A stretch of 64,000 bases of DNA, taken from Ignavibacteriales bacterium (lineage in GTDB: Bacteria > Bacteroidota > Ignavibacteria > UBA10030). A model generated the notes under the pieces. The model saw only the letters and a list, made by a program, of their open reading frames with translations, was not told where the DNA came from and did not search any database. The position numbers and the translations under genes are program-made. Positions 61,644-64,000 of the stretch are shown in pieces. How positions within the stretch are numbered: the stretch's first letter is position 1; the number at the start of each line of letters is the position of its first letter. The stretch is taken from positions 248,001 to 312,000 of the forward strand of contig JAPLFR010000009.1 of NCBI GenBank assembly GCA_026390575.1, in the 5' to 3' direction.

Positions 61644-61715
61644 TATGATAGGCAGTGAAGTTCGTGTTAGTCCATGTATCATGGAGACAGTAAAGTTGTA
61701 TTCATTAAAGGAGTT

Positions 61716-61759
61716 TGTCGATGGCATTGTTGAGCAATTGCGGGAATGGATTGAAGCTC
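61716..61759 (+). pseudogene. Fragment of a DUF559 endonuclease gene
   Basis: These 44 bases are identical to 63229-63272, the 3' part of the intact DUF559 gene. The preceding bases and the following ACACAG do not match, so only a tail has survived. It stands just left of the empty element at 61785-61934. Confidence 0.85.
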
Positions 61760-61784
61760 ATGTGACACAGCAAAAAGACTAACT

Positions 61785-61934
61785 GTCCCCTCTTGAGAGG
61801 GGACCGCAGGGGTGTGTGGTTGATGATTGCTGGAAAAAATATGGCGCGACAAAAGATGACACACCCCTTCCGCCCAACAAGACGGCGGACGAGAAATCCC
61901 CTCTCGGCTGGATTACTTCTTATGTGAGAGGGGA
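61785..61934. mobile_element. Empty, MITE-like copy of the DUF559 element
   Basis: Left end GTCCCCTCT-TGAGAGGGG-AC ... AGGGGTGTGTG at 61785-61818 and right end ACACACCCC ... TCCCCTCTC ... GAGAGGGGAC at 61859-61934 correspond in order and orientation to the ends of the gene-carrying element at 62869-63329. The interior between the ends is about 40 bases and has no gene. Its relation to the full element is that of a MITE to its parent. Confidence 0.75.
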
Positions 61935-61981: not shown

Positions 61982-62563
61982 ATGACGATTAGCAATGGCG
62001 AAATGACATCTGCTAAAGTTGGAAAGTTATCTGACACTGGCGAAAAGTAATTTGGTGTTGTAGTAATTTCAATAGTCAAGTGCGAAAAGTACTTTGACAG
62101 TCCTGAAAAGTAGTTTGACATCGGCGGGAAGCAATCTAACGTTGACGCGATGCCACCTATCATCGACGCGAAGACATCTGACAACGATGCGAAGCTACCT
62201 GACATTAACGCGAAGCCATCTGATGATGGCGCGGAGTAGTTTGACGTTGCCGCGGAGTAGTCTGACTGTGCCGCGAAGCAGTTTGACATCTGTGCGGAGT
62301 GGTTTGACGAGGAAGAAATGTCAGGTTACGATGACGCGAAGTCAGTTTACATCGGCGCGAACCTGTCTGACGTTGTAACAATTTCAAAATTGAATTGTGA
62401 AAAGCACTTTGTCAGTCGCGAAAAGCAGTTTTGCACAAGCGAAAAGTAGTTTGCAGTTGTTGCGAAGCAGTTTGACGTTTCCGCGGAGTGGTTTGGCGAT
62501 GGTGCGGAGCAGTTTGAGGAGAAAGAAATGGTGAGTACAGCAGGAAAATTGTTATTTGAATAA
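61982..62563 (+). repeat. 21-bp minisatellite (degenerate heptad-coding repeat)
   Basis: Successive 21-base units such as those at 62231-62293 share G-(A/C)-(A/G)-G-x-x-(T/C)-T-G-A. One plus frame running from ATG 61982 to TAA 62563 has a clear heptapeptide pattern (A-K-Q-F-D-I-C, A-E-W-F-D). It is interrupted by a TAA at codon 23 and TAG at codons 44, 86, 93 and 156. All five stops fall on the same variable third codon of the unit, which elsewhere is CAG, TGG, CAC, CTA and others. Longer partial repeats (TAACAATTTC-like then GAAAAGCACTTT) recur. The region is probably non-coding, or a decayed coding minisatellite. Confidence 0.7.
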
Positions 62564-62868
62564 CCGGTGAAGGTTTTTTCTTTTTGAGCTTTTGTAGGGA
62601 CGTTTAATTAAACGTCCCTACCGAGTATGTCTCTACTTGATTCTCACCCGATAACTCGCTACCATTTTCACGAGAAGCGTGTTGGGGAAACATCGCTTAC
62701 AATCCGCTATCGTCAGATTTCAAATCAGATTCCTAATATTGATTTCAACGCGATTCCATTTCTATGCTGATGTACAAAACGTTGGCTTGTTTATTGTAAT
62801 TTATACTAACGGGATGGATGTGAAGAATAAATAAATGCAAATGCATTTTTTCATATGTAAGATCAAAT
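62564..62868. other. Spacer with a 28-bp perfect palindrome
   Basis: A loopless perfect palindrome occupies 62594-62621 (arms GTAGGGACGTTTAA). No gene or ribosome-binding site was seen otherwise. It joins the minisatellite and the DUF559 element. Confidence 0.7.
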
Positions 62869-63329
62869 GTCCCCTCTCCAGAGGGGACTACAGGGGTGTG
62901 TGACAAAGGTTTGTATGGAAGATCGATGGATTCGATATAGTCCGAGATTAAAACAGATAGCCCGAACATTGCGGAAGAATATGACGTTGTCGGAAATTCT
63001 TCTCTGGCAGCAGATTAAGGGTAAGCAATTATTGGGATATGATTTTCACAGGCAGAAACCGATTGATGAATATGTGGTAGATTTCTACTGTCCGCGATTG
63101 AAATTAGTTCTTGAAATAGACGGTGATTCTCATGATGGAAAGGAAGAGGCAGACAAGATAAGACAAGAAAAACTGGAATCATTGGGATTGACGGTGATGC
63201 GATTCTGGGATTCAGATGTTAAGAGCAATGTCGATGGCATTGTTGAGCAATTGCGGGAATGGATTGAAGCTCGAAGAACACACCCCTAAATCCCCTCTCG
63301 GCTCGGTTAATTCTTATGTGAGAGGGGAC
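62869..63329. mobile_element. 461-bp element carrying a DUF559 endonuclease, with inverted terminal hairpins
   Basis: The left end (62869-62902) reads a CCCCTCT/AGAGGGG hairpin followed by AGGGGTGTGTG. The right end (63278-63329) reads ACACACCCCT followed by a CCCCTCTC ... GAGAGGGG hairpin with a longer loop. The ends are thus inverted copies of one another. The gene fills the interior and its last codons and stop lie inside the right end. A similar empty copy lies at 61785-61934. Confidence 0.78.
62915..63289 (+). CDS. DUF559 endonuclease-fold protein
   Basis: 124 residues from ATG 62915; the frame runs upstream into the left repeat. Seen: L-R-K-N-M-T-L-S-E-I-L-L-W near residue 20, F-H-R-Q-K-P-I near 45, then D-E-Y-V-V-D-F-Y-C and L-V-L-E-I-D-G-D-S-H. 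Together these are the D ... E-x-D-type site of the restriction-endonuclease-like (Vsr/DUF559) fold. It ends in R-T-H-P encoded within the right terminal repeat. Function unknown; nicking or repair roles are inferred from fold only. Confidence 0.88.
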   Translation: MEDRWIRYSPRLKQIARTLRKNMTLSEILLWQQIKGKQLLGYDFHRQKPIDEYVVDFYCPRLKLVLEIDGDSHDGKEEADKIRQEKLESLGLTVMRFWDSDVKSNVDGIVEQLREWIEARRTHP

Positions 63330-63481
63330 TTTTAGGGGATTTTTGTCGGCATGATGGATGTGAGAGTTGAAGGTTTATAATTAGTACTCCACAAATGAAG
63401 AATACCGATCTTTGATATTGCAAAATGCAACTTCAAAGAAGGGTCGTGACGGAGTGGATGTGAAGAAGAAGGATAATTAAA

Positions 63482-64000
63482 ATGAATGAGAACACAATTA
63501 TCCCGAGCGAAGTGATTGAAAAAAGGATATTTCTTTTGCGGGGACAGAAAGTAATGCTGGATACTCATCTCGCTGAATTATATAATGTTCCCACAAAATC
63601 TCTTAATCTTGCTGTGAAGCGAAACAGTGACAGATTCCCAGCAGATTTTATGTTTCAGCTAAGTGATGAAGAATATTCATTGATATCCAGCCATTTGAGG
63701 TTGCAGAATGAAACCTCAAAGGAATCCAGAAGAGGCGGAAGGCGATACTTACCATATGCTTTTTCGGAACAAGGTGTTGCAATGCTTTCCAGTGTTTTAA
63801 GAAGTCGAAGAGCTGTTCAGGTCAACATTGAAATCATGAGGGCATTTGTTAAATTACGTGAATTGTTAACTTCAAATAAAGATTTGGCACATAAATTATT
63901 GAAACTTGAAAAGAGGTATGATTCGCAGTTTAAAATTGTTTTTGACGCTATTCGTCAGTTAATGGCACCGCCTGAATATCCCAAGAAAGAAATCGGTTTC
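63482..64000 (+). CDS. ORF6N-domain protein, 3' end outside window
   Basis: ATG 63482 opens a frame of 173 codons that continues past the window end. Its start [14 protein letters not shown] and later [27 protein letters not shown] are diagnostic of the ORF6N domain, frequent in phages and accessory regions. A coiled-coil region begins at about 135. A modest purine-rich site (AGAAGAAGGA) lies 5' at 63463-63472. Probably a DNA-binding accessory protein; the function is not established. Confidence 0.88.

Follow-up and report, generated by a model that had tools for sequence, protein, structure and literature searches.

DUF559 nuclease genes between matched hairpins: candidate homing-type mobile elements in Ignavibacteriales and other bacteria

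The EDxHD homing endonuclease I-Bth0305I, from a family described in PMC3943268, is encoded in a phage group I intron and uses extra DNA-binding regions on a long target. In yeast, WHO elements home into FBA1: the 3' end of the gene is replaced each time, fragments are left behind and clusters build up. The WHO nucleases are of the LAGLIDADG type and derive from inteins (PMC7282813). REPtrons and TIRtrons depend on an HUH tyrosine transposase (RAYT or TIRYT), and their REPs carry GTAG at one end (PMC3733652). A DUF559 gene has already been placed in the EDxHD family (PMC9403480), so this assignment is not new. In a search of mostly open-access literature, we found no paper linking DUF559 with flanking palindromes.

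The DUF559 locus described here lies in a window of 64,000 nucleotides (the whole stretch of DNA analyzed) from a 3.82-Mb Ignavibacteriales genome (G000). With I-Bth0305I it shares the fold, the order of catalytic residues and a significant profile match, and both appear as small selfish nucleases at conserved genes; the DUF559 gene, however, is free-standing, about 125 codons long, free of intron or intein, bounded by hairpin ends, and found on bacterial chromosomes and plasmids. The likeness to WHO elements lies in the apparent replacement of host-gene ends, a chimeric gene, leftover gene-end fragments and clusters suggestive of repeated rounds, whereas DUF559 elements differ in nuclease fold, have many target genes, occupy gene starts in addition to gene ends, and carry paired palindromes. 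Since the fold is that of Vsr and no LAGLIDADG or intein-derived protein is involved, we say that the element 'works like' a WHO element, not that it 'is a' WHO element, and we take the resemblance as analogy, not kinship. As in REPtrons, a gene stands between palindromic repeats of which solitary examples are found elsewhere in the genome, but here a Vsr-fold nuclease is the sole gene and there is no HUH tyrosine transposase; no GTAG (or CGTC) tag is present at the ends of the window copy as read. Inverted terminal repeats, seen in the window and, at about 58 bp, in Deinococcus, recall insertion sequences and MITEs.

The first-pass annotation had described a DUF559 gene between inverted ends, each made of a C-run/G-run hairpin and a motif, and we confirm this arrangement at 62,871-63,327, between M16-type peptidase genes (a label given by inspection of the sequence) and an ORF6N gene (identified, like DUF559, through gene and Pfam analysis). 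The left border sequence TTTTTTCATATGTAAGATCAAATG, outside the hairpin (62,848-62,870, plus strand), is conserved in an alignment of five close copies. It is followed by the left terminal hairpin CCCCTCTCCAGAGGGG (62,871-62,886, from hairpin analysis) and the left inner motif AGGGGTGTGT (62,892-62,901, plus strand), recovered by motif search and in the five-copy alignment. The nuclease gene occupies 62,915-63,289 on the plus strand and is supported by its open reading frame, Pfam match (E = 2.3e-35), alignment, profile and structure; its ATG at 62,915 is common to all five close copies, and the open frame begins at 62,867, within the left hairpin. The right inner motif, AGGGGTGTGT on the minus strand and thus ACACACCCCT on the plus strand (63,278-63,287), overlaps the last codons and stop (63,289) of the gene. 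The right terminal hairpin, CCCCTCTC(loop)GAGAGGGG, spans 63,292-63,327 (hairpin analysis), and a partly conserved right border, ACTTTT...TTTTTGTCGGCATGATGGATGT, extends over 63,328-63,360 (plus strand) in the five-copy alignment. DUF559 is the only gene of the unit and ends in the right terminal repeat, as had been annotated. Some details need amendment. The ends had been called near-identical, an overstatement: the stem and the 10-bp motif are alike, in inverted orientation, but the loops are unequal (2 nt versus about 20 nt). Likewise, conserved sequence continues beyond the proposed 62,869-63,329, to about 62,848 on the left and 63,360 on the right.

The AlphaFold model of the window protein is confident (pLDDT 92). 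Its nearest solved structure is NGO0050 of Neisseria gonorrhoeae (PDB 3HRL; DUF559 profile 6.7e-32, fold 7.5e-8), followed by the catalytic domain of I-Bth0305I (PDB 3R3P; profile 6.6e-6, fold 4e-4); PvuRts1I and Vsr rank after these two. Across 31 diverse members, residues E23, D52, E63, H69 and D76 do not vary, and their order is that of the EDxHD motif. By predicted fold and conserved catalytic-type residues, the protein is an EDxHD / Vsr-fold (PD-(D/E)XK) nuclease. PADLOC matched it weakly to a methyl-directed enzyme of type II (E = 4.9e-7). Vsr (PDB 1VSR) and NGO0050 share this fold but lack matched ends; Vsr is a mismatch-repair enzyme and is not known to be mobile.

The AGGGGTGTGT motif matches four times in the window, versus 0.02 expected from shuffles, and seven times in the 3.82-Mb genome, versus four for a reversed-pattern control. 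These seven motifs belong to the window copy, a complete copy on another contig (C4), a mini-copy and one solitary site. The complete copy on C4 provides the second unit with the same boundaries that had been sought, its protein 93% identical to that of the window. The gene-less mini-copy (61,787-61,933, plus strand), 1.1 kb upstream of the window element, has the same ends: hairpin at 61,787-61,802, AGGGGTGTGT at 61,808-61,817, 41 nt, ACACACCCCT at 61,859-61,868 and hairpin at 61,898-61,933. Sequence comparison also identifies 22 codons from the C-terminal part of an older DUF559 gene at 61,702-61,767 (plus strand); with these two relatives nearby, the window locus is a small cluster. Three close copies with the same ends occur in sister genomes (G001, G003 and G005), on contigs named as Ignavibacteriae MAGs, and G003 also has a gene-less mini-copy. 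Beyond the borders, the flanks of the five copies are mostly unrelated, with the exception of the right flank shared by G001 and G003 and of various repeats. The window unit is very probably a real mobile element with matched ends. The earlier suggestion of a self-contained mobile unit is well supported by the second copy, the three sister copies, the mini-copies, ends that track the nuclease clade and palindromes that hardly exceed background in genomes without DUF559.

Target-site duplications had also been proposed for inspection. No short exact duplication was seen at the elements examined; the direct repeats found there are long, diverged and of variable length, and what some elements have beside them instead is a diverged piece of the end of the neighboring gene. 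A 22-bp direct repeat (62,809-62,830 and 63,449-63,470) was rejected as a candidate: the same GGGATGGATGTGA follows the right hairpins of other copies, so the repeat more plausibly represents remnants of the right ends of elements. An Rfam search gave no match near any gathering cut-off. A diverged repeat array of 21-bp period without obvious gene lies at 61,998-62,551, and a similar array (79% over 207 bp) adjoins the C4 copy. ORF6N genes recur beside such elements (window 63,482-64,000; L183:4143-4511; L101:2067-2432; L185:6942-8213; L184:4380-4592; L077): as tandem copies behind the window element, close to the copy on C4, and in G001 and G004. At L077 a direct repeat of ORF6N, about 429 bp and 75% identical, surrounds the DUF559 gene. 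ORF6N genes may serve as a target of these elements or be mobile themselves alongside them.

Hairpins are a general companion of DUF559 genes. All seven DUF559 genes of G000 adjoin C-run/G-run hairpins, which belong to different sequence families. DUF559 is present in 46 of 80 genomes of the same order (one genome per species), with patchy copies at several places per genome. We extracted about 95 loci from these genomes and scored hairpins within 200 bp: 53 of 89 loci have one upstream, 50 of 89 downstream and 33 of 89 on both sides, compared with 1.9%, 1.9% and 0.05% in control windows of the same loci, and with 5.7% of stretches downstream of other genes. A further 80 loci came from publicly available genomes and plasmids, almost all belonging to groups outside the order (Bacteroidota, Cyanobacteriota, Deinococcota, Nitrospirota, Chloroflexota, Patescibacteria, Pseudomonadota and more), and gave 45, 59 and 32 of 80, respectively (controls 3.0%, 2.1% and 0.1%). 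Of the pooled 169 loci, either side taken alone has a hairpin in more than half, and both sides have one in 38%, versus 2-6% and 0.1% in controls. Examples include units between paaD and paaZ in Deinococcus psychrotolerans and between sufB and sufC in Sphingomonas parapaucimobilis.

The ends are also coupled to the nuclease. Within an element, the left and right ends score a mean match of 10.6, compared with 8.2 for shuffled pairs (permutation sd 0.19), and end similarity tracks nuclease similarity (Mantel 0.166, permutation sd 0.029, kinship ignored). On a tree of 95 nucleases, built by a quick method from one short domain, the end motif changes 37 times versus 65.9 in shuffles, none of 200 being as low. 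A single clade of 21 nucleases (SH-aLRT 99), drawn from four families, contains all 18 elements of the GGGGTGTGT type; of the 12 elements whose ends are of the GATGAGT type, 10 group in another clade. That the ends follow the nuclease clade suggests that they are recognized and bound by the nuclease.

At the genome level, the pattern CCCCTCY..RGAGGGG occurs 595 times in the 46 genomes with DUF559, versus 90 for its reversed control, and 138 times in the 34 genomes without, versus 191. With kinship ignored throughout, the excess of palindromes correlates with DUF559 copies (rank correlation 0.72; partial correlation 0.59 after correction for Y1 transposases) and with Y1 transposases (0.55; partial 0.22); tested as mover of the palindromes, Y1 is the weaker candidate. 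Nine genomes with at least four Y1 genes and no DUF559 have few palindromes above control. Across the genomes analyzed, the hairpins found beside Y1 genes differ in kind from those of DUF559. Four genomes are exceptions, with palindromes and no DUF559 (G019, G038, G041 and G078). In G038 and G078, where no DUF559 gene was found, small palindrome pairs occur, CCCCTCTCAAGAGGGG beside CCCCTCCTTGGAGGGG about 10 bp apart; these are perhaps relics.

At about 13 loci, the gene adjoining one side of the element is represented on the far side by a fragment of its start or end, here called a stub. Named from recognized sequence motifs, these genes are Ser/Thr kinases (L059, L076), clpB (L002, L049), uvrA (L034), a small gene starting MADST (L074, L091), sodC (L082) and serS (L068), with other genes at L019, L051, L064 and L077. 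The same search in 190 control windows gave nine matches, all repetitive or paralogous coding stretches. Between stub and full gene, 90 of 131 changes are at third codon positions (111 of 158 with later cases). As the differences are mainly synonymous, the stub is a second allele, not a target-site duplication, and their concentration at third positions makes local duplication and decay an unlikely source; the codon pattern is what two alleles, each formerly under selection, would give. The MADST stubs of G001 and G003 have an identical end junction, and the full gene of G001 appears chimeric: its first 115 nt side with G004 (12 discordant sites versus 4) and the remainder with G003 (35 versus 9; Fisher p = 1.7e-4), as would be expected from an insertion importing a foreign gene end. 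The same test gave no signal for sodC (G028), and for uvrA no close ortholog was found in the sister genome for comparison. The window copy has no recognizable stub, nor do most DUF559 loci; L068, L064 and L034, from the clade of the window nuclease, are the best guide to its target.

Occupied and empty versions of several sites can be compared. In the window's own nuclease clade, the serS end is empty in G000, G043 and G048, where the stop is followed by an apparent ABC transporter gene. In G052, serS is followed by a hairpin, AGGGGTGTGT, DUF559 and right-hand ends; next come two serS stubs with a toxin-antitoxin-like pair between them. As relics, G033 and G064 retain only a hairpin and GGGGTGGGT a few nucleotides past the stop. 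The sodC end is empty in G013 and holds DUF559 in G025, G028, G029 and G030, the next gene being common to G013 and G029. At the clpB start, stubs and palindromes, with or without DUF559, occur in G000, G001, G002 and G005 and are absent from G006, G007, G011, G012, G015, G017 and G027; the two consecutive stubs in G000 fit repeated rounds. The clpB start, sodC end, serS end and MADST gene thus recur as insertion places in several genomes, through putatively independent events. Downstream of serS, stubs also follow toxin-antitoxin-like pairs without DUF559 (L303 in G052, L307 in G058), so the stub-forming process may be broader than the DUF559 nuclease. By eye, we also noted a PD-(D/E)XK-like reading frame directly after serS (L306 in G067, L308 in G055) and an HNH-type frame directly before clpB (L131 in G003), both possible nucleases.

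We lean towards reading the unit as a small homing-type mobile element, WHO-like in mechanism with hairpin ends in addition; homing is proposed because the stubs, chimera and clusters match features of the yeast elements. The family's nuclease would cut a conserved host gene close to its start or end, and an element-bearing copy would serve as repair template, with homologous recombination on the gene side. Repair would import hairpin, nuclease gene and hairpin together with the donor version of the gene end. The host gene would stay whole yet chimeric, and the gene end that the recipient had before would persist as a stub beyond the element. Repeated rounds would give rise to clusters in which elements, stubs and palindrome copies lacking the gene lie together. 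The hairpins need their own explanation, since WHO elements have none; they may be what the nuclease recognizes. The first-pass annotation had offered the nuclease as mobilizing enzyme or as cargo: the genome-level correlation, the coupling of motif and clade and the kinship with a homing endonuclease point to a mobilizing role.

A REP/RAYT-like alternative, possible though unlikely, makes DUF559 a dedicated transposase that recognizes hairpin and motif, perhaps single-stranded, excises or copies the unit and inserts it at another place, with mini-copies as non-autonomous MITEs and stubs as a by-product. Matched ends bound to nuclease clade, gene-less mini-copies, many solo palindromes and the stub-free intergenic insertions in Deinococcus and Sphingomonas would all suit it, but transposition does not predict synonymously diverged stubs, a chimeric gene or reuse of the same gene ends; short exact target-site duplications are not seen, and the closest characterized mobile relative is a homing endonuclease. 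Homing-type recombination is favored over transposition because some elements are flanked by diverged gene-end fragments and not by target-site duplications. Could DUF559 instead be a passenger between palindromes spread by recombination or by other enzymes, such as Y1/RAYT-type transposases, with stubs left by homology-facilitated illegitimate recombination of incoming DNA? The Y1 correlation, the stubs beside toxin-antitoxin-like pairs and the genomes with palindromes and no DUF559 speak for this, but the partial correlations, the Y1-rich genomes poor in palindromes, the other hairpins beside Y1 genes and an end motif that follows the nuclease clade render it quite improbable. Finally, the protein could be a standard chromosomal nuclease of the repair or restriction type, the hairpins nearby being terminators or there by chance. 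The PADLOC match, PvuRts1I and Vsr as fold neighbors and the single fixed place of ycjD in E. coli would be in keeping with this; it is already disfavored by two-sided hairpins with a matched motif, ten to thirty times as frequent as at other positions, by patchy copies at several places per genome and by gene-less copies, and we hold it to be highly improbable.

Extending the homing-type reading, we see an evenly balanced case for DUF559 as an undescribed, bacteria-wide mobile class: homing nucleases of Vsr fold, encoded by free-standing genes between hairpins specific to their clade, which replace the ends of host genes and from which a large part of the orphan C-run/G-run palindromes in bacterial genomes derives. 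If so, the ends of serS, clpB and sodC would be standing battlegrounds of successive nuclease types and toxin-antitoxin pairs. A function would be found for DUF559, a common gene in the order and in many phyla, and families of orphan palindromes would be explained. Bacteria would gain a mode described in yeast, in which a selfish nuclease spares its target gene by replacing its end. Natural nuclease-target pairs would also be supplied, making the spread of small palindromic repeats, an old question, directly testable.

Some loci deserve separate mention. In the E. coli sapF-fabI interval (L269-L273), ycjD (DUF559) and palindromes are present in most genomes, and other genomes checked have a two-gene efflux cluster instead. 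We considered ycjD as a strain-level empty site and rejected it, because most of the region is covered at one place in 3,362 of 5,426 genomes, whereas the others checked hold the efflux operon, leaving no clean empty site. At L023, L024 and L030, DUF559 and its palindromes are read through in frame within open frames of 800-1020 aa; L023 and L024 are apparently the same place in two genomes, and in-frame insertion into proteins is possible. The DUF559 gene at L007:1501-1848 contains, in frame, a small palindrome of another kind, CCTGCCTCGCCGGCAGGCGGGC, which adds PASPAGG to the protein.
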